A model generated the notes under the pieces. That model was not told the origin of the DNA and ran no database searches. It was given only the letters and a program-made list of their open reading frames with translations. Of a stretch of DNA of 39,726 nt, positions 14,022-30,887 are shown piece after piece. The position numbers were made by a program, and so were the translations under genes. Origin of the DNA: Microvirga terrae (GTDB lineage: Bacteria; Pseudomonadota; Alphaproteobacteria; Rhizobiales; Beijerinckiaceae). How positions within the stretch are numbered: position 1 is the first letter of the stretch; each line of letters begins with the position of its first letter. Where the stretch lies: positions 1-39,726 of the forward strand of contig NZ_CP102848.1 of NCBI RefSeq assembly GCF_013307435.2, in the 5' to 3' direction.

Positions 14022-14231
14022 ATGGAGAAGCACAAATTTGTCCGGGTCGTCAGCAGCAAGCGCGACATCGATGCGGCGGAAAAGAAGATCCGTGCCGCCA
14101 TGCGGAAATGCCGCTGCACTCCATCGCCGGCTTCGTATCGATCCAGAGACGACGGAAAGACTGAAGTGGTGGTCGAGTACACGTGTCCAGACGGCGACGT
14201 GTCTGAGAAGCTGTCCTTGTTCGTGCTGTAG
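14022..14231 (+). CDS. Small hypothetical protein, 69 aa
   Basis: The ATG at 14022, with GAGG upstream, encodes MEKHKFVRVVSSKRDIDAAE..., a basic alpha/beta protein with two central cysteines (RKCRCTPS) and a C-terminal strand pair (TEVVVEYTCPDGDVSEKLSL). The last codons overlap the first octad of repeat array A. Not recognised. Confidence 0.5.
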   Translation: MEKHKFVRVVSSKRDIDAAEKKIRAAMRKCRCTPSPASYRSRDDGKTEVVVEYTCPDGDVSEKLSLFVL

Positions 14232-14293
14232 TGCTGTAATGCGATAGCGGTCTTGGCATTGAGCCGCCGCACGTCTGGGACAGCACTACAGCA
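14224..14293. repeat. Octad array A: inverted pair between convergent genes
   Basis: Phased 8-mers CTGTAGTG, CTGTAATG and CGATAGCG start at 14226; an opposite copy ending CTACAGCA lies at 14280-14293. The 14-mers at 14224-14237 and 14280-14293 are perfect reverse complements. The pair sits between the convergent genes 14022-14231 and 14305-14574. Confidence 0.75.
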
Positions 14294-14304
14294 GAGAAGT
14301 TATC

Positions 14305-14574
14305 TCACCATCTTGTTTTCTTCTTCACGGGCTTCGCCATCATCCGTTGCATGGCTTCTTCCGCCTGTGCCTTGGCGTCCGCATCATGATTGAGGCTGCG
14401 CACCTCTGATGCTTCGCCCCGGTTTCCCAGCCCCATCTGACGCGCCTTCCACTGCCTCGCCTGGTCCCGTGCGGCTGCCGCATTGGCAAGCTTCTGAAGG
14501 CGGTCGAGCTGCGGTGTGCTGGCGGTCCCCTCGCCCTCGTCCTGTTGGTTGTTCTCTTCCGACTGCTCCGACAT
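14305..14574 (-). CDS. Charged hypothetical protein, 89 aa
   Basis: The product is very polar: an acidic Gln/Glu-rich start (MSEQSEENNQQDEGEG), a helix LDRLQKLANAAAARDQARQW, then a basic end (MAKPVKKKTRW). It looks like a coiled-coil or disordered nucleic-acid-associated protein. Octad arrays A and B flank the gene on both sides. The function is unknown. Confidence 0.55.
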   Translation of the reverse strand: MSEQSEENNQQDEGEGTASTPQLDRLQKLANAAAARDQARQWKARQMGLGNRGEASEVRSLNHDADAKAQAEEAMQRMMAKPVKKKTRW

Positions 14575-14692
14575 ATGCTCCCTTCCCGTTCCGTGTCATT
14601 GGCCTGTCACCGGCCACCGCTAGATCGATGCCGTGGCCGCTTGGCCTGAGGGACAAGGGCGAGCACGGATGTACTGCTCTCCTTGTCGCCTC

Positions 14693-14748
14693 ACCCAGCA
14701 CTGTAGTGCTGTCGCGTTAAAGCACTGAAGCACGACACCGCTGTGATG
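14693..14748. repeat. Octad array B
   Basis: Seven phased 8-mers from 14693: ACCCAGCA, CTGTAGTG, CTGTCGCG, TTAAAGCA, CTGAAGCA, CGACACCG, CTGTGATG. It lies about 120 bp upstream of the 14574 start and is a candidate operator for that gene. Confidence 0.7.
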
Positions 14749-15293
14749 GGAATAGGCGGCAGGTTTCCCCGCCGCCCAGAGACTACAAGGCGCTGAAGTG
14801 ATGCGCAGCGAGTAGCAAGTACAGGGAACCGATTCCCCCGTAGATCAATGCCTCGAACATTTCGGCTGCCCCTTTCTAGGCGTCCGGAACCTGGAGGGCG
14901 CCTGTTCGTTGGCTCGCCGATGGACTAGCATGAACAGCCCGCTCCCATGGTTCGGGTTAATGGACAGCCGGAAAGCTTCGAGTTTCCAGACACAAGCTTT
15001 CCGGCTGGTTCCGCTTTGCGCAGCGGATACACTTCAAGAATGTTCCCTTAGCCTGCGCAGTTCCCACAGATCGATGATACATCCACAGGAACGTTCTGGG
15101 TCCTCTGCCGCAGTCTGCATGGTGCGGTTCGACAGGCGACAGAATTGCGCCCTCCCCTGCCTTATAGGCTCTCAACGAACGAAGGTTATCGGACACCAGC
15201 CGCGGACGGGATCTCCTGCCCTGAGGAACACCAACGTCCACAATCACCGCCTGGTGACCTTGCCCCGGGGCGATCCAGGCCTTAGAGCACCCG
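14749..15293. other. Gene-free stretch with a perfect 14-bp inverted repeat
   Basis: No convincing gene is present. CAGCCGGAAAGCTT (14965-14978) and its exact complement (14994-15007) flank a 15-nt spacer, and a smaller CCGCT/AGCGG hairpin follows at 15011-15026. The stretch ends at the parA-proximal octad array. It could hold a replication, transfer or RNA structure. Confidence 0.45.
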
Positions 15294-15389
15294 CTACAGC
15301 ATTGTAGTGCTACAGCATCGGAGCGCTGTACGTTTACGCCGCTTTAATCTGATGGCGCTACGATGTCGTAAGACCATGGAGCTGTAGCA
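15294..15389. repeat. Octad array C, candidate parS and parA operator
   Basis: Twelve 8-bp units in unbroken phase run from 15294 to two bases before the parA start. The best are CTACAGCA (15294, 15310), TTGTAGTG (15302), CTGTACGT (15326), CTACGATG (15358) and CTGTAGCA (15382). The parA ribosome site GGAG (15378-15381) lies inside the array. It is the longest array in the window and sits where RHH partition proteins usually bind. Confidence 0.75.
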
Positions 15390-15391
15390 TC

Positions 15392-16030
15392 ATGAAAACC
15401 CTGACTCTCGTCACCCAGAAGGGAGGCGTCGGCAAGACCACCATCGCGGCATCCATTGCCGTTGCGGCTGCCCAGGCCGGCGAGAAGGTGGCTGCCCTAG
15501 ACCTGGATCCTCAAGGCTCCCTCGCCGATTGGGGCGATACCCGTGAAGAGGATTCCATTGCCGTCGACCGCATCACTCCGGACCAGGTGAGCCAGCTTCC
15601 GCAGATCCTCCAGGGCCTCAAGGGCCAGGGCTTCACCTTCGTGGTTCTCGATACGGCCGGCAGCGCGAACACGACCAATAATTTGGCCATGAAGGAAGCG
15701 GACCTTTGCCTGGTCCTCGCTCGGCCGTCGAAGCTGGATCTGAAGGCAACGCTCCCGACGGTCGAGGCCTTGATGCGCCTCGAGATGAAGGAGCGGTTCG
15801 CGTTCCTGCTGAACCAATGCCCCCCCAACAAGAGCAGCCGTGCCACGGAAGCAGCCAGCGGGCTCGCTATGTTCGGGGTTCTCGCAGAACCCGCCATGAC
15901 TCAACTCGTCGACCATCAGGACGCCATTGCGGCCGGGAAGGGCGTGACCGAATACGCCCCGGAGGGACGAGCCTCCGAGGAAGTCCGCAATCTTTGGACC
16001 TGGATCGCCCGCAAGACGAAGGCAAAGTGA
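15392..16030 (+). CDS. parA: ParA-type partition ATPase (type Ib), 212 aa
   Basis: A deviant Walker A motif, KGGVGKTT, occupies residues 10-17 with the signature Lys10. DLDPQGSLADW follows near residue 40 and VVLDTAG near residue 88. The protein lacks the N-terminal HTH of type Ia ParA and has the short length of type Ib proteins, which pair with small RHH centromere-binding proteins. Exactly such a gene follows two bases later. It moves plasmid copies by ATP-dependent binding to the nucleoid. The array of 8-bp repeats directly upstream is the likely centromere and operator. The start is the ATG at 15392 with GGAG ten bases before it. Confidence 0.9.
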   Translation: MKTLTLVTQKGGVGKTTIAASIAVAAAQAGEKVAALDLDPQGSLADWGDTREEDSIAVDRITPDQVSQLPQILQGLKGQGFTFVVLDTAGSANTTNNLAMKEADLCLVLARPSKLDLKATLPTVEALMRLEMKERFAFLLNQCPPNKSSRATEAASGLAMFGVLAEPAMTQLVDHQDAIAAGKGVTEYAPEGRASEEVRNLWTWIARKTKAK

Positions 16031-16031
16031 A

Positions 16032-16334
16032 ATGACCAAGCGCCCCTCCCTCGTGGCAGGCCTCATCAACCAGACGCCCGCTCCTGAACCCGTCAGCCCT
16101 GCCCCGGAGCCGATCCCCGCCGTGAAGCCGGCAGCTCGCAAGGCCACGCCGGACATCGTCCACACGAGCGTGTATCTGCCGAAGCAGGCTCACCGGAAAC
16201 TGAAGGAAATCGCCTTCCATACGGACCAGAAGGTTCATGACCTCATCATGGAAGGAATTGACGAAGTTCTGAGGAGGCACGGCCACCCGACGTCCGCCGA
16301 GATGAAGGCTGCCGCCCAGGGAAGCGTGAAGTAA
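16032..16334 (+). CDS. RHH centromere-binding partition protein, 100 aa
   Basis: The first 38 residues are Pro/Ala-rich and disordered (PAPEPVSPAPEPIPAVKPAA), as in the mobile tails of ParG-like proteins. Residues 40-83 form a ribbon-helix-helix: strand VHTSVYLP, helix AHRKLKEIAFHT, helix VHDLIMEGIDEVLRR. The gene is two bases after parA and overlaps the next start (TAATG). In related type Ib systems this protein binds tandem repeats in front of parA, represses the operon and loads ParA. I infer that the 8-bp repeats found around the accessory region are its sites. Confidence 0.8.
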   Translation: MTKRPSLVAGLINQTPAPEPVSPAPEPIPAVKPAARKATPDIVHTSVYLPKQAHRKLKEIAFHTDQKVHDLIMEGIDEVLRRHGHPTSAEMKAAAQGSVK

Positions 16335-16663
16335 TGCAATCTGTTGTTACTGCGGCACTTACAGGTGCACTTGTTGCTGGGACCTTCGTTATTGGCCACC
16401 TTGTCCTGAAATATGGGCTCCGGAAGCCGAGTCCTTCAGGAACAGCCTCGTTCTTCGCTGGAGCCATCACCTGGGCCGCGGTCTTCACTGCCTATGTTTT
16501 GGTGATCAGCCCGGCATGGAATGTGTTCAGCGAATGGTTCAATGCTGACGCCCGTGCAGCCGCACTTGAGGCCAAGAAGGCTGAGTTCTCCAGCATATGC
16601 CAAGACATGATATCGAAAGGCCTGACGCCGGGTCGCGTATGCAAGGAAATAGGTATTGAGTAG
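16334..16663 (+). CDS. Two-helix membrane protein in the par operon, 109 aa
   Basis: Two membrane helices are visible: residues 4-26 (VVTAALTGALVAGTFVIGHL) and 40-62 (FFAGAITWAAVFTAYVLVIS). A cytoplasmic or periplasmic helical tail follows, with two cysteines (SICQDMI, GRVCKEIG). The start overlaps the RHH stop, so it is made with the partition proteins. A membrane protein in a par operon is unusual; anchoring is a possible role but is not shown. Array D follows the stop. Confidence 0.65.
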   Translation: MQSVVTAALTGALVAGTFVIGHLVLKYGLRKPSPSGTASFFAGAITWAAVFTAYVLVISPAWNVFSEWFNADARAAALEAKKAEFSSICQDMISKGLTPGRVCKEIGIE

Positions 16664-16668
16664 AACTG

Positions 16669-16720
16669 CATCTGCGCTGTAGCATTATGGCGCTACAGCA
16701 GCATCCCGCTGTAGCGCCAT
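16669..16720. repeat. Octad array D forming a bidirectional terminator-like hairpin
   Basis: Phased units CATCTGCG, CTGTAGCA, TTATGGCG, CTACAGCA, GCATCCCG and CTGTAGCG run from 16669. ATGGCGCTACAGC (16687-16699) and its exact complement (16708-16720) make a 13-bp stem with an 8-nt loop between convergent genes. Confidence 0.75.
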
Positions 16721-16726
16721 CCTCAA

Positions 16727-16930
16727 TCAACTCTCGACGATTTCGTTGATAATCTTGGAGGCTTCCTCTTCTGAGAAGTCAGCCTCCGCAATCAGGTTGG
16801 CCTCGAGTTCGGCTTTGTCCTCGCCGTTAATCTCGATCCTGTCACCCTTCGCGATGCTAGGAGTCGCCAAAGTCGCGCTTCCCTCCTGCGTCAGGGTGCC
16901 AAGAGTATCCTCTTTCTGGACAGTCCACAC
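16727..16930 (-). CDS. Downstream part of a stop-split small gene, 67 aa (GTG start)
   Basis: The acidic product (TVQKEDTLGTLTQEGSATLA, then DRIEINGEDKAELEANLIAE and DFSEEEASKIINEIVES) starts at a GTG with no good ribosome site. The same frame upstream, across a TAA at 16937-16939, is the 27-codon ORF described next. The two halves read as one 97-codon gene with an in-frame stop. This part could be made by reinitiation or readthrough, or it may be the dead end of a pseudogene. Confidence 0.5.
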   Translation of the reverse strand: MWTVQKEDTLGTLTQEGSATLATPSIAKGDRIEINGEDKAELEANLIAEADFSEEEASKIINEIVES

Positions 16931-16936
16931 TCGCAG

Positions 16937-17020
16937 TTAATCGCCTTCGTCGTACTTCTCAATTGAGATGGGCCGGCCACCGACGGTGCCCTGCCAAAGC
17001 TCGTTCCACTTGTCCGCCAT
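16937..17020 (-). CDS. Upstream part of a stop-split small gene, 27 aa
   Basis: The ATG at 17020 has a good AGGAG site nine bases before it and encodes MADKWNELWQGTVGGRPISI and seven more residues before TAA. The frame continues after two sense codons into the 16930 GTG gene. Array E lies upstream and array D downstream, so the unit is bracketed by octads. Confidence 0.5.
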   Translation of the reverse strand: MADKWNELWQGTVGGRPISIEKYDEGD

Positions 17021-17066
17021 GCAGATATCTCCTGTCGCGGGTGAAACCAGAAGACAGACGTTGGTT

Positions 17067-17114
17067 CCATCGCACTATAGCGCTACGGCACTATAGGTTT
17101 AGAGCACCACAAGG
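17067..17114. repeat. Octad array E
   Basis: Six phased units from 17067: CCATCGCA, CTATAGCG, CTACGGCA, CTATAGGT, TTAGAGCA, CCACAAGG. A perfect 14-bp palindrome (AGGTGGCGCCACCT, 17112-17125) follows. The array lies upstream of the stop-split gene and downstream of the DUF1127 gene. Confidence 0.7.
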
Positions 17115-17148
17115 TGGCGCCACCTCGCTCATTCTGTGTTGGCAGGGA

Positions 17149-17298
17149 TCATCGCCCCTGCCGAACGGCCTTCGAAATGTCGCCCCGCGTCAGACCAATG
17201 TCGGAGAGCTCCCGATCCGTCAAAGCTCCCAGCTCGCGGGCAGTTTTACGGGAACGGTGCCACTGGCGAAGGGTGGAAAGAACGACCGACAGAAACAT
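17149..17298 (-). CDS. DUF1127 (YjiS-like) protein, 49 aa
   Basis: The minus-strand ATG at 17298 opens MFLSVVLSTLRQWHRSRKTA followed by RELGALTDRELSDIGLTRGD and a short tail. This is the classic DUF1127 pattern (Arg-rich start, L-x-x-L-x-D-R-x-L-x-D-I-G-[IL]-x-R). Short DUF1127 proteins of Alphaproteobacteria bind RNA and affect phosphate and carbon metabolism or small-RNA turnover in the cases studied; the role of this plasmid copy is unknown. Confidence 0.85.
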   Translation of the reverse strand: MFLSVVLSTLRQWHRSRKTARELGALTDRELSDIGLTRGDISKAVRQGR

Positions 17299-17585
17299 GG
17301 TGCAACCTCAACAATAAACGCGCACGAGTTGGCCCACGCCGCCTTGAGGCAGCGAAGGAGAAAAGTTGGCCACCCATTGAGATGGCCGAGTTTAGGGAGG
17401 AAACCCGCCACAGGGAGGCCGTGGCGGAGGAGGGGTCATCTACAGCGCACCACGCGCCGGACAAACCTGAAAGTGGTCGCCCCTGGCATGCGGAATGAGC
17501 ATGGAACGGTCTGAGCGCGTTTACCCCGAGTTTACGAACACCCCGAACCCAGAGAGAAGCATCATGCCGCCTCGGTGGAATAAAC

Positions 17586-17609
17586 CTACAGCGCTACAGC
17601 ATTTTAGCA
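17586..17609. repeat. Octad array F
   Basis: Three phased units (CTACAGCG, CTACAGCA, TTTTAGCA) lie 54 bp upstream of the 17663 gene. Confidence 0.65.
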
Positions 17610-17662
17610 GGAACCAGCCCTCACACGGTACGTTCCCGATATAAGATATCGGAGTCGTCGCT

Positions 17663-17896
17663 GTGATCCTCACCAAATCGCCCGCTCTTGGCGCACCTCA
17701 CAAGTCCAACCCTTTCGTCATCTGGCGCTGGGAGCCGGAAGGGCCTCAGTATGTCAGCGAGACCATTGATGACCCGAACACTGGCATCTCCAGAGAGACG
17801 CGGCGCCTCGATGTCCCTGAAGGCGCTATTCTAGGGATGACTCCCGACGGCAAGTTCATGGTCGGGGAAGTGATGAACAACGCTACAGCACCGTAG
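17663..17896 (+). CDS. Small hypothetical protein, 77 aa (GTG start)
   Basis: The GTG at 17663 opens a soluble beta-rich protein: NPFVIWRWEPEGPQYVSETI, then DDPNTGISRETRRLDVPEGA, then GMTPDGKFMVGEV. No family is recognised. Array F precedes it, and its last five codons are the beginning of array G, so the gene is bracketed by octads. Confidence 0.55.
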   Translation: MILTKSPALGAPHKSNPFVIWRWEPEGPQYVSETIDDPNTGISRETRRLDVPEGAILGMTPDGKFMVGEVMNNATAP

Positions 17897-17930
17897 AACT
17901 ACAGCACCACGATGCTAAAGCATCGCAATG
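17883..17930. repeat. Octad array G
   Basis: Six phased units from 17883: CTACAGCA, CCGTAGAA, CTACAGCA, CCACGATG, CTAAAGCA, TCGCAATG. The array begins inside the last codons of the 17663 gene. Confidence 0.75.
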
Positions 17931-18021
17931 CAACCATCCCCCGGGGCGGCCGTTATGCAGACGTGGAGGCTTCCCCGCATTCCCCTTGTGCCGTTTTTCC
18001 TGCACGTCCTCCACCGACTAC

Positions 18022-18055
18022 AGCCCCGCTCAGGCCAATCCCGGCGGGGCTTTTT
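18022..18055 (+). terminator. Rho-independent terminator overlapping the recombinase 3' end
   Basis: AGCCCCGC (18022-18029) pairs with GCGGGGCT (18044-18051), followed by a run of T. It would end plus-strand transcripts from the 17663 gene and lies in the last codons of the opposing recombinase. Confidence 0.7.
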
Positions 18056-18725
18056 CTTGACCGAGTACCCGCATCACCTGCGTCGCGGTCCAGTTCTTGC
18101 CCCGAGACGTCCTGATGTGCCGTTCATTCAGGGCGGCTGCTATCTGCCGGAGAGACGTGGCGCCGCTCGCCTGGATGTCGGCAACGATAGGTCTGATGTC
18201 GGCCGCACGGCTCCTTGCCTTGGTCGACCGGACAAGGGCGCTGGCCTCAGCGCCTTTCTTGGCCACGAGGTGGATCCGGCCGCGGTTCCCGCCGAGCTTC
18301 GTCCCACGCGCCTTGGCAGCGGCGAGGGCGTCCTTGGTCCGCCTGGAAATCATCTCACGCTCATGCTCGGCCACGGCAGCCAGAATGTGAACCGTCAGCC
18401 GATTGGCCTGCGGGAAGTCGACGGCCGTGAACTCAACCCCGGACTCCATCAAGTTGCTGATGAAGGCGACGTTGCGGGCGAGACGATCCAGCTTGGCGAT
18501 GATCAGGATGGCGCCATGGAGCCGGCACAGCCGGAGGGCTTCGGTCAGGCGAGGGCGATTGTTCTTCTTGCCGCTCTCGACTTCGATAACCTCGGACATG
18601 AGCTGCCAGTCCCCGCCGTTGAGGTACGACCGAACGGCTTCCTGCTGCGCCTCGAGGCCAAGGCCGGATCTGCCCTGCTTCTCGGTGCTGACGCGGTAGT
18701 AGGCGACGAACCTGCGCTGAGACAT
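18030..18725 (-). CDS. Serine recombinase (resolvase/invertase type), 231 aa
   Basis: The N-terminal catalytic domain has the nucleophile Ser13 in AYYRVSTEKQ. It also has GLEAQQEAVRSYL, the LIIAKLDRLARN arginine motif near residue 80, and HEREMISRRTKDALAAAKARG at the start of the long E helix. The C-terminal part (SLRQIAAALNERHIRTSRGK, NWTATQVMRVL) is a short DNA-binding region. The length fits resolvases rather than large integrases. It probably resolves multimers of this circular replicon. An 18-bp palindrome at 18804-18821, upstream of the gene, is a candidate crossover site. Confidence 0.85.
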   Translation of the reverse strand: MSQRRFVAYYRVSTEKQGRSGLGLEAQQEAVRSYLNGGDWQLMSEVIEVESGKKNNRPRLTEALRLCRLHGAILIIAKLDRLARNVAFISNLMESGVEFTAVDFPQANRLTVHILAAVAEHEREMISRRTKDALAAAKARGTKLGGNRGRIHLVAKKGAEASALVRSTKARSRAADIRPIVADIQASGATSLRQIAAALNERHIRTSRGKNWTATQVMRVLGQEKAPPGLA

Positions 18726-18803
18726 GACGAACCCTCGGCCGGAGATGCCTAGAACAGGCTCACCCGCGTTACTGCATCACACAAATGGCGGGAGTGACGG
18801 AAG

Positions 18804-18821
18804 CCACTACGTCCGTAGTGG
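18804..18821. promoter_or_regulatory. 18-bp palindrome upstream of the recombinase, candidate res site
   Basis: CCACTACG, TC, CGTAGTGG: perfect 8-bp arms around a two-base centre, as expected for a serine-recombinase crossover with a 2-bp overlap. The location 79 bp upstream of the recombinase start supports this, but an operator role is equally possible. Confidence 0.45.
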
Positions 18822-18961
18822 TAAATGTAACGGGTTTCGGATTGCGGTCAAGCTTGTTCGGCCGGCGCCGGCAGGGACCACCCGCGCATGTAACCCAAAG
18901 GTATCGGTGAGGGCGCAGAAAGATATCGACAGGCGACAGGGCGACCTGTCACAATGCACCT

Positions 18962-19174
18962 ATGATGTATTTCACCTATTCCTTTTCCCCACAAGACGCG
19001 GCTTACACGGCCGATGATTTCATGATCGACCTCTCGTCATTTTCGGATCATCTTACTTTCCATCACTGGAAGGAAGGCGGGTATACTCGGGTCTACGTCA
19101 CTCCTGCGAGCGGCTACAACCCCAACAACATCGCAGTACTTGTCCGGATGAGAACTTCGAGGAAACCGGACTGA
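18962..19174 (+). CDS. Small hypothetical protein, 70 aa
   Basis: The product (MMYFTYSFSPQDAAYTADDF...) is soluble with mixed beta strands and several aromatics, ending in LVRMRTSRKPD. The start is ATGATG without a clear ribosome site. Array H follows the stop. Not recognised. Confidence 0.45.
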   Translation: MMYFTYSFSPQDAAYTADDFMIDLSSFSDHLTFHHWKEGGYTRVYVTPASGYNPNNIAVLVRMRTSRKPD

Positions 19175-19185
19175 CAGAGGCACAA

Positions 19186-19225
19186 CTACAGCGCTGTAGC
19201 GCCAAAGCATTACAGCGCTGTAGTA
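19186..19225. repeat. Octad array H
   Basis: Five phased units (CTACAGCG, CTGTAGCG, CCAAAGCA, TTACAGCG, CTGTAGTA) contain two copies of a perfect CAGCGCTG core. The array ends 56 bp upstream of the preferred WGR start. Confidence 0.8.
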
Positions 19226-19281
19226 TGAATCCGTTCATCGTTTCATGCGTTAATGGTCCAGGCTCACCACAGAGGCCGCCC

Positions 19282-19611
19282 ATGCGCCAACTGTCCTTCG
19301 CCTTCCTGCTCGCTGGCAGCCATGCCGTCCGGGGCGAACCCACATCTGGATCGTCCGCCAGCGAGGCGGGGACTCGGCCCGTCACCCTGCGCCGGATCGA
19401 TCCAGCCAGGAACATGCGCCGCTTCTACTCCCTCGAGGTGGAGTGGGATCTGCTCGGAAATGTCGTTTTGGTCCGCCGTTGGGGACGGATCGGCAGCGCC
19501 GGGAAGGTCCGCTTGGACGCTCATGCAGGAGAGGGCGAGGCTCTCGCAGCCCTCCAAGCCCTTCAGATGGCCAAGGCGAGGAAGGGCTATCAGCCTATGG
19601 TTCGAGCGTAG
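19282..19611 (+). CDS. Second stand-alone WGR-domain protein, 109 aa
   Basis: I prefer the ATG at 19282 (MRQLSFAFLLAGSHAVRGEP), with AGAGG six bases upstream; an in-frame ATG at 19225 abuts array H and lacks a ribosome site. Residues 35-105 are a WGR domain: LRRIDPARNMRRFYSLEVEW, LVRRWGRIGSAGK, then a helix and KGYQPM. It is a diverged paralogue of the 11546-11803 protein. The hydrophobic first 15 residues could be a remnant signal or simply part of the fold. Confidence 0.8.
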   Translation: MRQLSFAFLLAGSHAVRGEPTSGSSASEAGTRPVTLRRIDPARNMRRFYSLEVEWDLLGNVVLVRRWGRIGSAGKVRLDAHAGEGEALAALQALQMAKARKGYQPMVRA

Positions 19612-19799
19612 AGACCCGCCAGTTCGCTTCCACGACGGCCGACGGGTCAACTGATTTCAGGAGGTTACGCACCCGCTATCTCTCGTCCCATTCGCGCTGC
19701 GCCATGTCCGGATCCTTGGGCAGATAGGGCCAGACGTACACGGCCTCCCACAGTCTCCACTCATGAAACGTCCGTCTTGTAGGGGTGGGGTCCGCCGCC

Positions 19800-20525
19800 T
19801 CAGGCAGGCAGTTGCAGATGCTGCTGCGCCCACATAGCGGCTTGGGTGCGGTTGCCCGCCTTGACCTTCCTCAGAATGCTCTTGATGTGGACCTTTACGG
19901 TCGCTTCCACGAGACCGAGCTGACGCGCAATGAGTTTGTTCGTGGCGCCCTCCATCAGGCATCGCAAGACCTGGGCCTCTCTGTCCGATAGCCGCCCTGC
20001 CAACCCGACAGTCGGGAACAACGGACCTTCCTGAGCCTCCGGCTCGCTCCAACGGGACTGCTGTTCGAGCAGGGCCAGGCCAATCTCCGCTGGAAGGATG
20101 GTCTCACCGTCGGTCACCAGTTCAAGAACCTTGACCAAGCTGCTCCCGCCCATGGCGGGGGAGCAAAGCCCATTCAGACCGGCTTCGAACAGACGGAGGA
20201 CGGTGTTGGGCTTCAAATGATCGGCCAGAACAACCACCCAGGCTGAGGGACACTGAGCCTTCAGCCTCTCAAGGGTTTCCAGGTACGCGTTCGGCGAGAG
20301 GCTCTCCCCCAACAGGATGAGAACGCGGTCGCTCTCAGCAAAGACTGATATGTCCGACGTCAGATCAACGACACGATCCGCCAAGGCGAACGGCGTGTCG
20401 GATAGGATCATTCTGAGACCAGCGCGAAGAACAGTGTTGCGGCAGATCAACAGGGTCGTGGTATGCGGTACCGCATCATGGGCAATCGAGTGCGATTGCA
20501 TCCTGACAACAACTTCTTGTCTCAT
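19800..20525 (-). CDS. NarL/FixJ-type LuxR regulator with degenerate receiver, 241 aa
   Basis: Residues 20-150 have the outline of a receiver domain, but the phospho-acceptor position reads VLILLGESLSP with no Asp, so phosphorylation is unlikely. The C-terminal HTH is clear: GRLSDREAQVLRCLMEGATN, KLIARQLGLVEATVKVHIKS, ILRKV, the normal LuxR/GerE form. Such pseudo-receiver regulators are frequent in Methylobacteriaceae. It stands alone; its targets are unknown. Confidence 0.8.
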   Translation of the reverse strand: MRQEVVVRMQSHSIAHDAVPHTTTLLICRNTVLRAGLRMILSDTPFALADRVVDLTSDISVFAESDRVLILLGESLSPNAYLETLERLKAQCPSAWVVVLADHLKPNTVLRLFEAGLNGLCSPAMGGSSLVKVLELVTDGETILPAEIGLALLEQQSRWSEPEAQEGPLFPTVGLAGRLSDREAQVLRCLMEGATNKLIARQLGLVEATVKVHIKSILRKVKAGNRTQAAMWAQQHLQLPA

Positions 20526-20732
20526 AACTCAATGCCCCTTTGGCCCCCTTGGCGGGTAACTCAATACTGTACCAAGAGCTGGCCCGGCGGTTGATCCCGA
20601 ACGGGGCAGTGACTGGGCACGGGTGAGTTAACTCTTTTGGCAGCCTGAACCTCAGTGGGTCACCGTCCGTAAGCTCGTTGGCACCAGGGGCCGCAATTTT
20701 CCGGGGGTATAGAAGGCTCTAGGGCGAGCGTC

Positions 20733-20882
20733 TTAGAGCATGACGTACATCAGGATTGCACAACTCACGCCGGAAAGCGTCAGTGCCAGAGCCACGATGG
20801 AGACAGCCTGATGTCCGAACCGATCAAGCTCAGCCTGAGCCATTTCGGGCTGGGCATGAGGTTCAAGGTCGAGAAAGTTCAT
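20733..20882 (-). CDS. Small membrane protein, 49 aa
   Basis: The ATG at 20882 opens MNFLDLEPHAQPEMAQAELD followed by one membrane helix (VSIVALALTLSGVSCAILMY). There is a GGGGCGG site upstream. It is a single-pass protein with a short polar N-terminus; nothing similar is recognised. Confidence 0.5.
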   Translation of the reverse strand: MNFLDLEPHAQPEMAQAELDRFGHQAVSIVALALTLSGVSCAILMYVML

Positions 20883-20950
20883 TTTGCCGCCCCAGATTAG
20901 ATCCCTTCCAACATACAAACGCCGTGGTACTCCGTAAGGTTCAGCTTACG

Positions 20951-21190
20951 ATGTCGAGAACGAACCTGCCTGGGGATTGGTCCGCAATCAGTGAGGCGCC
21001 ACGTGACGGTACGCCTGTGATCCTTTGGTTGCTTGAGGATGAGGCTCCGCCAGAGGCCCCCAAATCTGTCGGGTACTGGACCGCAAATCCCAGTGCCGGC
21101 ATCGGTTACTGGCGGCTCTTCGGTGATCCACCCAGCTTTTGCTCGGATCGGCAGATACGCGGTTGGCGTCAGCTTCTCCGAGGGGAGTGA
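20951..21190 (+). CDS. DUF551-like small protein, 79 aa
   Basis: The ATG at 20951 gives MSRTNLPGDWSAISEAPRDG, then TPVILWLLEDEAPPEAPKSV and GYWTANPSAGIGYWRLF. The pattern W-x-x-I-x-x-A-P-x-D-G-T-P-V followed by aromatic strands is the DUF551-like fold common in phages and prophages. A longer in-frame start at 20756 overlaps the opposite gene and is unlikely. Confidence 0.65.
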   Translation: MSRTNLPGDWSAISEAPRDGTPVILWLLEDEAPPEAPKSVGYWTANPSAGIGYWRLFGDPPSFCSDRQIRGWRQLLRGE

Positions 21191-21246
21191 CAGAGCAACG
21201 AACAAACGGTTCCCTGATGAGTTTGTAAGCACCCAATCATCAGGAA

Positions 21247-21498
21247 ATGCCGGTGCCGCGTTACTTCTTCGACACCTACGATGGTGAGCGTTTCGTCCCC
21301 GACCCTGATGGAGTCGACCTGCCGGATCTCGCGGCGGCGAAAGCCGAGGCGCAAAAAGCCCTGACGGATATCGCTCGGGATGCCCTCCCCAACGGCGACC
21401 AGCGGACTTTCATGGTCAGCGTCAGAGGAGGGACGGGAGAACTGCTGGCGCGGGCGTCGCTCACCCTCATCGTCGAGGATGTCGAAGTGGCAGCGTAG
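21247..21498 (+). CDS. DUF6894-type protein, 83 aa
   Basis: PRYFFDTYDGERFVPDPDGV followed by DLPDLAAAKAEAQKAL and a C-terminal strand region (RTFMVSVRGGTGELLARASL) match the short DUF6894 family, which is abundant in Methylobacterium and Rhizobium relatives. Its function is unknown. The copy supports an alphaproteobacterial host. Confidence 0.8.
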   Translation: MPVPRYFFDTYDGERFVPDPDGVDLPDLAAAKAEAQKALTDIARDALPNGDQRTFMVSVRGGTGELLARASLTLIVEDVEVAA

Positions 21499-21513
21499 CT
21501 TCCCATAGGGTCG

Positions 21514-21834
21514 TTATGGGTTGCAGCTTCTGCCATAGAACCGCAGCATCCGCTCATAGGCGTCAGTGAGGCGCCGGCCGGCATCCCCTCGCTTGTCTTC
21601 CCTGCCGCTTCTCGAGAATGGAAGCGCCGGGCCGGGCAGGGTGGCGGTCAGGCTCCACGCCCATGTGCCCGCTAGTGGCCCATGAGGCTCCTGATGAACG
21701 TTGCCGATGTAGGTGTGCCAGCGGCTGTCGCTGTCCCGATCCGGCTTGTCCTCGTCGAAACAAGTCCAACTCGTCTCCAACCAGGCATCATCCGGCCAAG
21801 CCTCTGAGGTCTTCATCCAGTAGATGCTAGGCAT
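21514..21834 (-). CDS. Hypothetical protein, 106 aa
   Basis: A polar, Trp-rich protein: AWPDDAWLETSWTCFDEDKP, SRWHTYIGNVHQEPHGPLAG, TWAWSLTATLPGP, then a helix LTDAYERMLRFYG. The composition suggests a compact soluble domain. It lies 6 bases after a 22-codon gene with which it is probably co-transcribed. Not recognised. Confidence 0.6.
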   Translation of the reverse strand: MPSIYWMKTSEAWPDDAWLETSWTCFDEDKPDRDSDSRWHTYIGNVHQEPHGPLAGTWAWSLTATLPGPALPFSRSGREDKRGDAGRRLTDAYERMLRFYGRSCNP

Positions 21835-21840
21835 GCCGCG

Positions 21841-21909
21841 CTACTTACGGGGGCGGCCTGAAGCGTCAATGGTGACGCGCTGTCCGGAAATCGGGTCGAG
21901 AATGGTCAT
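21841..21909 (-). CDS. Microprotein, 22 aa
   Basis: The ATG at 21909 has an AAGGGA site at good spacing and encodes MTILDPISGQRVTIDASGRP and two more residues before TAG. Short proteins with a (T/K)ILDPxTGxxV pattern recur as tiny ORFs in Rhizobiales genomes, from memory, which supports a real gene. It is followed closely by the 21834 gene. Confidence 0.5.
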   Translation of the reverse strand: MTILDPISGQRVTIDASGRPRK

Positions 21910-22030
21910 GGCAGCATCCCTTGTGCAGGCGCATGAACAACGCCGAACGTCCGCTTGCGGATCAGTCTAATTCCCATTGTGGTTACGGGACTCTTACCGA
22001 CACGTGTGCTCAAACACAAAGAGCAGTCCG

Positions 22031-22354
22031 TCAGGGAACAGGCCGCATTTCCATATCGGGATAGTTGTTATCCCACCGAGCCGCCCCGGTCTTCAGGTCG
22101 ATTTCCATAGTGAATCGACGCGGAGCTGTTTCCGGAGCGCCACCGCACTTGCCGCCGTGCTTCTCCCGAACAGTGACCGTTGCCACTGTCTTCGTAGCTT
22201 CTTCCAGCACCAGGGACGAACAAGCCAACTCCGCTCGGGAAAGAAGGCGATGCTGGGTGATGATGCGAGATGCCTTCCGCATGATGACGTCTTCTTCGGC
22301 TGCAAGTGACGTCAGAGGAACGAGGCATGCGATAGTACAGATGACATACTTCAT
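22031..22354 (-). CDS. Small secreted protein, 107 aa
   Basis: MKYVICTIACLVPLTSLAAE is a clear Sec signal peptide with cleavage after LAA. The mature part has ITQHRLLSRAELACSSLVLE, a pair of cysteines (CGG and LACS) and TMEIDLKTGAARWDNNYP. It is a periplasmic protein of unknown function; the pattern recalls small hypothetical proteins of Rhizobiales. Confidence 0.65.
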   Translation of the reverse strand: MKYVICTIACLVPLTSLAAEEDVIMRKASRIITQHRLLSRAELACSSLVLEEATKTVATVTVREKHGGKCGGAPETAPRRFTMEIDLKTGAARWDNNYPDMEMRPVP

Positions 22355-22404
22355 TGAAGGGCGCTAAGCTATACTATGTATTCTATTCATCACATCCGAT
22401 AAAC

Positions 22405-22800
22405 TCATTGTATTTTCAAGCACAAGGCTAGCACATCAGCTTTCGGAACATTTCCTGACCACGCGCATTCCCAGCGGTTCGCTGCTGTATTTGGTCCAAT
22501 ATTTTGCAAGGGGACCGCGCCACTTTGAGAGATGCAAGTTCCTGAAATCACCTTTGTATGTTCAGGACAAGTAGATTCCCAAACAGTGCTGTCTGTCCCT
22601 GGCCTTACAGATCCAGCAGATCCCTGAAGAGGCGCGGAAGCCTTGGAGCCGGGAACAAGTGTTATTTTGCCGAAAAGTTCACTCTCCACCTCCACGGAGG
22701 CACTCAAGACAATGACCCCGTATGCAGCCGCGATGGCGACGATCAAGGCAGATATAGCAGCAATAAGCTTTACTATCTGATCGAAAGACATGAGTGTCAT
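22405..22800 (-). CDS. Membrane-anchored hypothetical protein, 131 aa
   Basis: The start at 22800 (MTLMSFDQIVKLIAAISALI) is chosen over 22827. One membrane helix spans about residues 9-35. The exposed part has four cysteines in the region STCPEHTKVISGTCISQSGA and RWECAWSG...LALCLKIQ, probably two disulfides in the periplasm. The function is unknown. Base composition is a little more AT-rich than in neighbouring genes. Confidence 0.55.
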   Translation of the reverse strand: MTLMSFDQIVKLIAAISALIVAIAAAYGVIVLSASVEVESELFGKITLVPGSKASAPLQGSAGSVRPGTDSTVWESTCPEHTKVISGTCISQSGAVPLQNIGPNTAANRWECAWSGNVPKADVLALCLKIQ

Positions 22801-22895
22801 TGTTTGCCCGCTCTCGCGCACACGCAAACTATACGCTCATTTGCGGACTAAACCCATAGCGGGTCAGATAAAGGCAGCGTTCAGGTTACGCGGGC

Positions 22896-23339
22896 TTATG
22901 CGTTCCGCCTATCTAGGTTCAGCACATCAAGGATCAGGGAAAGGCCGATGACGTGGCCTGTCTCCAATCTCTCCTCGAGGGCATGTTCTAGGTCATCCAC
23001 CGTCGACACGTTCGTAGGGTCCAGCGCCGCCATCTGGGCCTTTACGAGCATTCCCTTGGGTGTCTTCGCCCGCGTCCGGACAATTCGTCCCTCCAGCTCA
23101 TGCAGGGACTCCACGGTCTCACGCACGGGTTGGTCATATCGCTCCTCGCCCTCGTCCGATTGCCTGTAGAGCATGAGCAGGCGCTCCCATGCCTCCTGCC
23201 ATTCCTGCCCCATGGCCAGGAGTGCGCTATCTTCGCCTCCGGGAACGGCAGCCGTAGCAAGGGCAGGAGATGCAGCAAGAGCCGCGAGAGAGCCACCCAG
23301 GACAGAGCGGCGGGACAGGTCGGCGTGCTTCGTCTTCAT
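22896..23339 (-). CDS. Tat-signal hypothetical protein, 147 aa (paralogue of the next gene)
   Basis: MKTKHADLSRRSVLGGSLAA is a twin-arginine-type signal (SRRSVLGG) followed by a hydrophobic stretch and ALATAAVPG. The mature part is helical and acidic (ESLHELEGRIVRTRAKTPKG, then STVDDLEHALEERLETG). The adjacent 228-aa protein has the same plan. Such Tat-like helical proteins are common in Hyphomicrobiales mobile regions, and their role is unknown. The leader carries octad array I immediately before the ribosome site. Confidence 0.65.
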   Translation of the reverse strand: MKTKHADLSRRSVLGGSLAALAASPALATAAVPGGEDSALLAMGQEWQEAWERLLMLYRQSDEGEERYDQPVRETVESLHELEGRIVRTRAKTPKGMLVKAQMAALDPTNVSTVDDLEHALEERLETGHVIGLSLILDVLNLDRRNA

Positions 23340-23345
23340 CTTGAA

Positions 23346-23385
23346 TTCCAATGCTGTAGCGCTTTAGTGGTTTGATGCTGTAGCG
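23346..23385. repeat. Octad array I
   Basis: Phased units TTCCAATG, CTGTAGCG, CTTTAGTG, GTTTGATG, CTGTAGCG lie directly upstream of the 23339 start. Confidence 0.75.
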
Positions 23386-23386
23386 G

Positions 23387-23415
23387 GAAAAGGGCAGCCC
23401 TAGGCGAGGGCTGCC
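23387..23415 (-). terminator. Terminator-like hairpin after the 228-aa gene
   Basis: GGCAGCCCT (23393-23401) and AGGGCTGCC (23407-23415) form a perfect 9-bp stem with a 5-nt loop overlapping the stop codon; on the minus strand it is followed by CTTTTCC. Confidence 0.55.
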
Positions 23416-24086
23416 AGTTGTTCGACGAGCTGGCGCAAGGCGGCATCGCCCGCATCGAGGCTCTCAATGGCCTCCGTCCGGAGGATAGGGCTGTTCTCGT
23501 TCTCCAGCAGGTAGCGGGCCTTGATGGCGGCTCCCTGGATTGTCGTTGGAGTGGTGTTGCGGATCGTCTCGGCCAAAGGCCACACGACTTCCTCGAGGAA
23601 GCGGTCTTGTTCCCGCTGGAGCGGCGTCACGCCATGCCTGTCCCAAGCCTCCTGATATTGCTCGCCCCTGACGTCCTCATAGGCCATCCGCTCTTCTTCG
23701 CTGATGTCCTGAACAGTCGTCCCGGCCCGGTGCCTCCCAGCAGCCAGAGCGACCTTGAAGGGATGTTCCGGAAGAGACTCCACGGCAGCCCTGAACAGCG
23801 GCTCAATCTGCGCATTGAATGCGCTGTTGCGGGCCATGGCATCCTGGAACTTGGCCCAGGCGTCCATCAGGATTGCATCGCCGTCGGAGGCTGCGGCCGG
23901 GAAGGGCAGGACAGCAGCCGTGGCGAGAGAGCCTGCCATCACGGCACGGCGGGAGACGTCGGCTCCGCCTCCAGCACGAGACTTGCGGGAACGAGGCATC
24001 ACTCGTGCGGCCGCGTTCCGGAAGCGCTCACGGATCGAGAGGCGGGGCTTGTTGGTGTCGCGCTTGAAGATGTTGAGGCCGGCCAT
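23400..24086 (-). CDS. Tat-signal hypothetical protein, 228 aa
   Basis: I chose the ATG at 24086 (MAGLNIFKRDTNKPRLSIRE), with GGAG seven bases upstream. A long basic n-region leads to SRRAVMAGSLATAAVLPFPA, a twin-arginine-type signal. The mature domain is helical: DAWAKFQDAMARNSAFNAQI, EDVRGEQYQEAWDRHG, AIKARYLLENENSPIL. It has the same architecture as the 147-aa neighbour, and both leaders share array-plus-TTGGA sequence, so the pair looks like a duplication. The function is unknown. Confidence 0.65.
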   Translation of the reverse strand: MAGLNIFKRDTNKPRLSIRERFRNAAARVMPRSRKSRAGGGADVSRRAVMAGSLATAAVLPFPAAASDGDAILMDAWAKFQDAMARNSAFNAQIEPLFRAAVESLPEHPFKVALAAGRHRAGTTVQDISEEERMAYEDVRGEQYQEAWDRHGVTPLQREQDRFLEEVVWPLAETIRNTTPTTIQGAAIKARYLLENENSPILRTEAIESLDAGDAALRQLVEQLAALA

Positions 24087-24093
24087 GTGAAAA

Positions 24094-24133
24094 CTCCAAT
24101 GCTGTAGTGCTGTGATGCTGTCGTGGTGTCTGT
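24094..24133. repeat. Octad array J
   Basis: Phased units CTCCAATG, CTGTAGTG, CTGTGATG, CTGTCGTG, GTGTCTGT lie directly upstream of the 24086 start. Confidence 0.7.
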
Positions 24134-28505: not shown

Positions 28506-28518
28506 ATTTGTGCGCCCT

Positions 28519-29496
28519 ATGACCCCAATCCCCTACGCGAAGCCTCACCTTCCGGTCCCTGACCAGCTTGAGCTTCTTAAGTCGCGTGGGATGAACGTTA
28601 CGGATGAGCCCCGCGCGATCCAGTATCTTGAGCGCATGGGGTATTACCGTCTGAGCGGGTATTGGTATCCATTTCGGCAGTCTCGGCTCATCACTGGCGC
28701 TGATGGGCGCCCTACCACCCAGATTATTGACCAGTTCCGCCAAGGCACCGAGTTCCGGCACGTTGTCGAACTTTACGTCTTCGACAAGCGCTTAAGGCTC
28801 CTGTTCCTGGATGCAATTGAGCGTATTGAGGTCGCATTGCGAGTTGATGTCGCCCTTCTCCTGGGCGCAAGGGATCCATCAGCGCACCGCAACCCCAAGG
28901 AACTTCATGGTCATTTCGCGGCCAAGATAAACCCTCGAACCGGGGACACTAACCATAAGGCTTGGCTTGCAAGACTGGACGAGAATGAGCGTCGGTCGAG
29001 AGAAGACTTCGTCAAGCACTTCAGAGCCAAATACTCGTCAGACCTACCGATTTGGATAGCCATTGAGCTTTGGGACTTCGGAATGCTCTCAACATTTCTG
29101 AGTGGCATGAAGGTCGCCGACCAGGATGCAATTGCAGCAAAATACAACATCCCACGCCGAGAACTGCTGACGAGCTGGATGCGTGCCATCAACCACATCC
29201 GCAACATCTGTGCCCATCACAGCCGTCTATGGAATTGCTCTCCCTCAGACCAACCGAAACCCCCTAGAGCCGGCGAAATTCCCCTTCTGGACCACCTCGC
29301 GAACGACACCTTCGCTCAGACGCGCCTCTACGCGGTTGCCGCTGTGATCCAATTCCTCCTTCGGCGGATCAATCCAACAACGAGTTGGGCCACGAGATTA
29401 AACGAGCACTTCGCAAGCTTCCCACAGGCGCCTGGGATCGCGCCCGGCCAAAGCGGCTTCCCAGCATCATGGGAAACATTGCCCCTATGGACCTGA
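28519..29496 (+). CDS. AbiF/AbiD-like Abi_2 family HEPN protein, 325 aa
   Basis: An Abi_2-family protein implicated in abortive infection. LERMGYYRLSGYWYPFRQ (from about residue 37) is the family signature near the N-terminus. FDKRLRLLFLDAIERIEVAL near residue 90 and the HEPN motif RNICAHH (Arg228 to His233, R-x4-H) with SRLWN complete the RNase fold. The predicted action is RNA cleavage on phage infection. There is no ribosome site at the ATG (GTG at 28510 is an alternative), and a hairpin ends a few bases upstream, so expression is probably tied to the small RNA. It protects the element or its host from competing phages, by inference. Confidence 0.85.
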   Translation: MTPIPYAKPHLPVPDQLELLKSRGMNVTDEPRAIQYLERMGYYRLSGYWYPFRQSRLITGADGRPTTQIIDQFRQGTEFRHVVELYVFDKRLRLLFLDAIERIEVALRVDVALLLGARDPSAHRNPKELHGHFAAKINPRTGDTNHKAWLARLDENERRSREDFVKHFRAKYSSDLPIWIAIELWDFGMLSTFLSGMKVADQDAIAAKYNIPRRELLTSWMRAINHIRNICAHHSRLWNCSPSDQPKPPRAGEIPLLDHLANDTFAQTRLYAVAAVIQFLLRRINPTTSWATRLNEHFASFPQAPGIAPGQSGFPASWETLPLWT

Positions 29497-30802: not shown

Positions 30803-30887
30803 GCGGACGTGGCGAAACTGGTAGACGCAAGGGACTTAAAATCCCTCGGGCTTGCCCGTGCGGGTTCGATCCCCGCCGTCCGCACCA
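30803..30887 (+). tRNA. tRNA-Leu (UAA anticodon)
   Basis: An 85-nt class II tRNA with encoded CCA. Acceptor arms GCGGACG (30803-30809) and CGTCCGC (30877-30883) pair perfectly. The anticodon stem GGGA/TCCC encloses CTTAAAA with TAA at 30837-30839. A variable arm follows, and GGTTCGATCC forms the T arm. It reads UUA and UUG, codons that are rare in a GC-rich host. Confidence 0.95.

Follow-up and report, generated by a model that had tools for sequence, protein, structure and literature searches.

The parA-RHH locus and its ten octad arrays

Microvirga terrae contig NZ_CP102848.1 (39,726 bp, taken whole as the window of this analysis, in a four-contig genome of 6.13 Mb) carries a parA gene, a gene for a small protein that we tentatively assign to the ribbon-helix-helix (RHH) type, and ten arrays (A to J) of tandem 8-bp repeats, hereafter octads, with the core CTRYAG. 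The parA gene (15392..16030, plus strand) encodes a Walker ATPase of 212 amino acids (aa) whose Walker domain starts at residue 1; it matches the Pfam families CbiA and AAA_31, and its best NCBIfam model is ParA_partition (136.7 bits, cut-off 180). The ATPase also matches the broader Pfam VirC1 family (44.9 bits vs a cut-off of 24), but falls below the cut-off of the NCBIfam VirC1 equivalog (45.7 bits vs 313). The RHH gene (16032..16334, plus strand) starts 1 bp downstream of parA, and its 100-aa product, proposed here to bind the octads, was assigned by PF20605 (27.3 bits, cut-off 27.2), the sole Pfam family to match it at E ≤ 0.01, and by an alignment of relatives. A profile match was also obtained to ORF56 (2k9i; E 0.0029), which we take to be an RHH protein. 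Third in the par operon is a 109-aa open reading frame (ORF; 16334..16663, plus strand) without a Pfam match.

All ten arrays were found where an earlier note on this DNA had placed them, between 14224 and 24133, and they are intergenic except for small overlaps with gene ends. With an octad profile trained on 166 octads from six other plasmid loci, the window being excluded, the ten best runs over the window were exactly arrays A to J (24.5-54.8 bits); all other runs stayed below 11 bits and no eleventh array was found in the window. Training on the window itself gave a profile with which the arrays scored 24.4-57.2 bits, against a peak of 16.9 bits in 30 Markov-simulated windows. The scan of the replicon with an octad profile, which the earlier note had proposed, returned arrays A to J only, and a 400-kb sample of the other three contigs (20 stretches of 20 kb) peaked at 15.1 bits with the independent profile and at 14.4 bits with the window profile. 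We also built a sequence model from 22 arrays, seven of them from the window (B, C, D, E, H, I, and J). Its 18 matches at E ≤ 1 in the host genome all lie on this contig and cover A to J, including A, F, and G; this search scored 150 of 738 first-look candidates, so that weak sites elsewhere could have been missed. The model gave a match at E ≤ 1 in 16 of 48 genomes, which for most of them is about chance level. Centred on CTRYAG, the octad profile and its reverse complement correlate at 0.99, in agreement with the self-complementary unit that had been claimed.

Array C (15294..15389) consists of 12 octads and leaves 2 bp between its end and the start codon of parA, which bears out the earlier description of an array abutting parA beside an RHH gene. 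Gene starts lie no more than 118 bp 3' of seven arrays (B, C, E, F, H, I, and J), the genes for these distances having been picked by us with the help of the listed ORFs and of matches to families. Array B (14693..14748) is 118 bp upstream of the start of an 89-aa gene (14305..14574, minus strand), which lies between arrays A and B. Array E (17067..17114) is 46 bp upstream of the start codon of a small MADKW-family gene (16727..17020, minus strand), flanked by arrays D and E and interrupted by an in-frame TAA after codon 27, whereas the Microvirga aerilata copy (L004) is open. Array F (17586..17609), with three octads, is 53 bp upstream of a 77-aa ORF (17663..17896, plus strand; no Pfam match) that lies between F and G, and array H (19186..19225), which contains the palindrome CTACAGCGCTGTAG and a near copy of it, abuts the start of a WGR-domain ORF (19225..19611, plus strand; PF05406, 63.5 bits). 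Array I (23346..23385) is 6 bp upstream of a 147-aa gene (22896..23339, minus strand) and has a ribosome-site-like GGAA stretch in its terminal octad, while array J (24094..24133, of which 24094-24125 scores in the profile) is 7 bp upstream of a 228-aa gene (23400..24086, minus strand), with GGAG in its terminal octad 7 nt before the ATG; neither gene has a Pfam or NCBIfam match. Since the last octads of C (GGAG within octad 15374-15381), I, and J contain GGAG or GGAA, these three arrays seem to extend through the ribosome site of the adjoining gene.

The remaining arrays sit between convergent gene ends. Array A comprises three in-phase octads (14226..14249), overlapping the 3' end of an 81-aa ORF, and two more (14278..14293; 10.8 bits) that are 4 bp out of phase; 28 bp without octads separate the two blocks, which form a 14-bp inverted repeat. 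The strict phase described for every array therefore does not extend to A. Array D (16669..16720, in-profile over 16677-16716) follows directly on the par operon and is a strong inverted repeat, and array G (17883..17930) overlaps the 3' terminus of the 77-aa ORF and is separated by 99 bp from the 3' end of a serine recombinase gene. The dispersed arrays are unusual in their number and in that several of them are flush with gene starts.

Octad arrays at other parA-RHH loci

Ten loci were first fetched by RHH similarity; of 12 records listed, nine were fetched, the other three being pRPA records of equal length and score. In all ten, octad runs beat the best of eight shuffles of the locus's own sequence, although two of them (L010 and L012) have identical RHH sequences. 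The weakest was L014 (28.8 bits, shuffles up to 17.6), the units of which look different. This locus is the Bradyrhizobium septentrionale pBs1S1c record, whose feature table resembles two copies of one 11-kb half. Runs above 18 bits numbered two to four in each wholly scanned record (L007, L008 with L011, L009, L010, L012, L013, and L014), compared with ten in the window. The commonest layout in these relatives is one long array before parA and another after the RHH gene. The complete 8.4-kb plasmid pRPA has up to 20 octads just before parA, and runs of at least 14 bits occur in it as two arrays only, both at parA-RHH.

We tested about 260 bp upstream of parA for periodicity in a motif-free way, counting a locus as periodic when no more than 1% of 300 dinucleotide shuffles reached its best lag. 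From 37 loci, five without a ParA match and L057, which is cut by a contig end, were set aside, leaving 31, some of them interdependent. Periodicity was found in 21 of these, including the window, with a best lag of 8 in 19 and of 7 in two. Of the loci picked by ParA similarity, seven of 11 were periodic (lag 8 in three, lag 7 in four), none of 300 mononucleotide shuffles reaching the same level. These 11 come from 12 loci fetched from 50 records (L118, which starts 100 bp before parA, was excluded), and one of them, L112, has nearly the same RHH protein as L058.

The repeat unit and the strand of the RHH protein tend to change together. Octads of the CTRYAG type accompany TS[VIL]Y strands, units of the ATGCAATG type accompany a QQTVYLP strand, and 7-bp units accompany TVY strands such as KLTVYV, KATVYM, and KVTVYL; a Nostoc plasmid has a unit of the TACAAGTA type. 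Arrays of 7-bp units were found upstream of parA at the ParA-RHH loci L059, L061, L108, L110, L113, and L115.

Proposed mechanism

We consider it likely that parA and the RHH gene form a type Ib partition module, and that the RHH protein reads the octads at array C and at the nine dispersed arrays. The size ranges published for type Ib systems cover a ParA of 212 aa followed by a 100-aa protein (range 46-131 aa; PMC3235114). The size of ParA, the small DNA-binding protein predicted downstream, and the tandem repeats at the par promoter are all of the type Ib kind, the last point being based on array C with its 12 octads next to parA; a consensus scan did not place the promoter itself.

From the sequence and its comparison with other loci we infer binding, coating, ParA stimulation, repression, and partition as follows. 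Each 8-bp palindromic octad would bind one RHH dimer, and dimers side by side on tandem octads would coat the array. Lying flush against parA, array C would act as autoregulatory operator and as centromere, while the nine other arrays would be dispersed sites for the same RHH protein and would add centromere capacity. Those that abut or precede gene starts (B, E, F, H, I, and J) might also repress the genes concerned. ParA would be stimulated via the largely conserved N-terminal RPS stretch of the RHH protein.

Several observations weigh against this proposal. The case for an RHH fold in the 100-aa protein is thin and draws mostly on sequence pattern: the protein clears the PF20605 cut-off by only 0.1 bit, most of its relatives fall under that cut-off, its structure model is poor (mean pLDDT, the predicted local distance difference test, 66) and lacks a strand, and a fold search with this model gave no match at E ≤ 0.001. 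An order-wide search found RHH matches in 22 of 397 genomes, and strong window-type octads in just two of 26 RHH loci (L055 and L060); L058 has a weak window-type run (20.5 bits), and other clades have different units or none. Ten of the 31 loci failed the periodicity criterion, among them that of M. aerilata, where sequence resembling an insertion sequence (IS) replaces the parA start (L004, at about 5649), the parA match beginning at residue 27 behind it and no octad array being left upstream. At G265, an intact parA-RHH pair with a TSIYLP strand is without octads in 16 kb. The strand rule is not clean either, because L060 has the strand VGLYLP, yet a window-type array of 118 bits, L113 has a 7-bp array with a VVAYIP strand, and 8-bp periods were found with QLSVYL or QMSVYL strands; moreover, the agreement of unit and strand can be explained by common descent. 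The tie between octads and the parA-RHH pair, which the earlier note had drawn and proposed to follow up by scanning relatives, is supported by all ten first-fetched loci and by the 21 periodic ones, and is limited by the order-wide RHH loci, most of which lack strong window-type octads, and by G265.

Octad arrays before MGEWK/MADKW genes of Microvirga

A further difficulty comes from the host genus. After the sequence model had revealed some arrays before members of a small gene family, MGEWK/MADKW, this family was sought in 48 Microvirga genomes, and an array (at least 15 bits within 320 bp) was found upstream in 17 of 28 tested members, 18-102 bp from the start of the match; no other run of at least 15 bits was found in the 81,184 bp of these loci. 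In a control, the family of the 89-aa gene, upstream arrays were present in none of 29 tested members with a reach of 450 bp. The tested members (28 of 46 and 29 of 68, respectively) are those for which a locus was fetched, excluding L157, L158, and L167, the window's own locus. Arrays had led to six of the 28 in the first place, and among the other 22 the count is 11. Four of the 17 arrays score below 20 bits. By eye, the upstream DNA is closely related in nine or ten of the 17, and that of two more is nearly identical mutually, so that the independent cases number perhaps three to six. The window gene behind array E joins the family through an M. aerilata homologue, which is 37% identical over 62 aa to the window piece and 29% identical to a Microvirga MGEWK/MADKW protein (BLASTP E 5e-6 in a two-sequence comparison). 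In M. aerilata, the MADKW gene still has an array some 70 bp upstream.

Only four of the 48 Microvirga genomes have an RHH match at E ≤ 0.05, and it is strong in two. The PF20605 search found no RHH protein in G019, G007, G029, and G046, and no RHH protein of this family was found in the eight-contig assembly of G019. At the ParA homologues of six array-bearing genomes without a strong RHH match (G029, G030, G046, G015, G027, and G005), none of 16 loci had window-type octads of at least 17 bits; one of these loci, L123 in G015, has an 8-bp period of different sequence. The earlier note had named octads spread over the host chromosome and unrelated replicons apart from a parA-RHH gene pair as evidence that would count against it, and the Microvirga family supplies such cases in part. 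These arrays may be plasmid leftovers, or be read by another protein, or by a plasmid RHH protein when one is present.

Two other candidate pairings were dropped. The control above does not support the idea that array B is an operator conserved in the 89-aa family, although one copy in G015 (contig C33), among the 39 matches outside the tested 29, has an array about 350 bp upstream. In G046 (contig C130), a 22-bit run beside a short match to a 117-aa gene was unconvincing.

Alternative explanations

The Microvirga family bears most directly on the idea that the dispersed arrays are operators of another DNA-binding protein, of host or plasmid, for which parA-RHH is merely one target. Arrays precede more than half of the tested MGEWK/MADKW members, and half of those not previously known through their arrays, vs none in the control family, and most array-bearing Microvirga genomes have no RHH match. 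Nevertheless, we regard this explanation as unlikely: the independent cases are few and some of the arrays weak, pRPA has its octad arrays solely at parA-RHH, repeat units vary with the RHH clade, and no candidate for such a protein was found. We think it possible, though on the doubtful side, that the arrays are partition sites only and lie before genes simply where intergenic space is free. The convergent gene ends flanking A, D, and G agree with this, as does plasmid pMF1, some arrays of which lie inside ORFs (PMC3235114). Against it stand the start codons within 7 bp of C, H, I, and J, the ribosome-site-like stretches in the terminal octads of C, I, and J, and the retention of the array before the MADKW gene in M. 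aerilata. A further reading, a partition protein that doubles as a plasmid-wide regulator on all ten arrays and whose type of operator also fronts a host-genus gene family, appears to us quite improbable; if true, a plasmid carrying the RHH gene could act on host genes in trans. As for the regulon of about ten accessory genes in the earlier note, the seven arrays close upstream of gene starts fit it, but an operator role of A, D, and G is hard to see because they lie between convergent gene ends.

That the arrays function as RNA hairpins or terminators is very improbable, even though several fold better than their dinucleotide shuffles (z -4.7 for A, -4.8 for D, -6.4 for H, -3.0 for B, and -3.3 for C; the other five weaker) and A and D lie between convergent gene ends. 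When nine arrays (A being outside this comparison) were compared with arrays redrawn from the same octads, only H showed better folding on each of the two strands (p 0.0025 and 0.005, whole octads), and D was a borderline case on one of them (p 0.065 and 0.04); after this control, a role in RNA structure is rejected for most arrays. Moreover, hairpins do not require a strict 8-bp phase. A consensus scan found three promoter-like sites vs 2.5 in shuffles and ten terminator-like sites vs 7.7; none of the ten falls inside an array, and the arrays are not explained by any of these sites. We give equally little credit to replication iterons bound by a Rep protein. In the Rhizobium and Shinella relatives, the array after the RHH gene directly precedes repA, but the longest arrays precede parA, and pRPA and two Methylobacterium plasmids have arrays without a repA annotated alongside (their gene tables are incomplete). 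The serine recombinase was discarded as the partner of the octads, since pNMS14P2 has arrays and no such recombinase is named in its (incomplete) feature tables. Compared with these alternatives, we prefer the type Ib module with an RHH protein reading the octads.

The replicon and its other genes

The sole relative of the RHH gene in a search of genome contigs (81% identity) lies on a 7,343-bp contig of M. aerilata; because this relative sits in Microvirga, the 39,726-bp contig is probably a Microvirga plasmid. The family of the 89-aa gene has no Pfam match and is widespread in Microvirga (30 of the 48 genomes, the host counted in). Between this gene and array B, window positions 14595-14700 resemble sequence in two Microvirga genomes, G015 (83% over 106 bp) and G030 (88% over 58 bp). 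Positions 17384-17535 match a plasmid of Microvirga sp. VF16 (86%) adjoining an IS6 transposase and are a probable IS remnant. Elsewhere on the contig, an Abi_2 family gene (28510-29496, 196 bits) is a possible phage-defence gene, and a tRNA-Leu (taa) gene lies at 30803-30887.

Comparison with known systems

The analysis points to a recognisable 8-bp code linked to a ParA-RHH family on alphaproteobacterial plasmids, in which most annotations call the product of the RHH gene hypothetical. On this basis the centromeres of such plasmids would become predictable from sequence, the RHH proteins found in nature with units of 7 or 8 bp would form a series in which to study how such proteins read DNA, and, with arrays so widely dispersed over one plasmid, the link of partition to gene control could be tested directly. 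In the literature covered, which comprised the matches listed and few subscription papers, we found no description of the octad, nor of an RHH partition system from Alphaproteobacteria with repeats of this kind.

MetJ is an RHH repressor that binds tandem 8-bp palindromes, the met boxes; the RHH protein of the window differs in being linked to ParA and has no MetJ match among the Pfam families at the threshold given above. Among alphaproteobacterial modules, that of pTAR has a small ParB and repeats at parA, and its likeness to the window module is drawn from description, not from sequence. ParA/ParB of this Agrobacterium plasmid have been classed as type Ib (PMC3235114). The partition module of pMARC3 from Paracoccus is likewise alphaproteobacterial, with a small ParB and a putative parS at the parA promoter, but its repeats are three non-identical 13-bp units, and dispersed arrays are not described in the available text of that paper (PMC3832669).

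In pSM19035, delta and omega are a ParA and an RHH protein, and short tandem promoter repeats serve as centromere and operator, as is proposed here. The sites of omega are tandem 7-bp repeats, present at three promoters, and at least four repeats are needed to activate ParA fully (PMC9499535). These heptads are non-palindromic and lie at the copS, delta, and omega promoters (PMC9499535), whereas the window has an 8-bp palindrome in ten arrays. In Myxococcus, ParB of pMF1 binds all six arrays of 8-bp units, four of which lie away from par (PMC3235114). The pMF1 parCAB system is of type Ib with a small, autoregulating ParB, an imperfectly palindromic 8-bp unit (AGATGTCT), and arrays both at par and dispersed; it differs in the sequence of the unit, in having six arrays, some of them inside ORFs, and in an extra parC (PMC3235114). 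The available text of the pMF1 paper does not use the term ribbon-helix-helix (PMC3235114), and the likeness of its ParB to our protein is by description and not by sequence. By analogy, then, the closest precedent for the dispersed arrays of the window is pMF1, and the closest for an RHH protein as centromere binder and regulator is omega.

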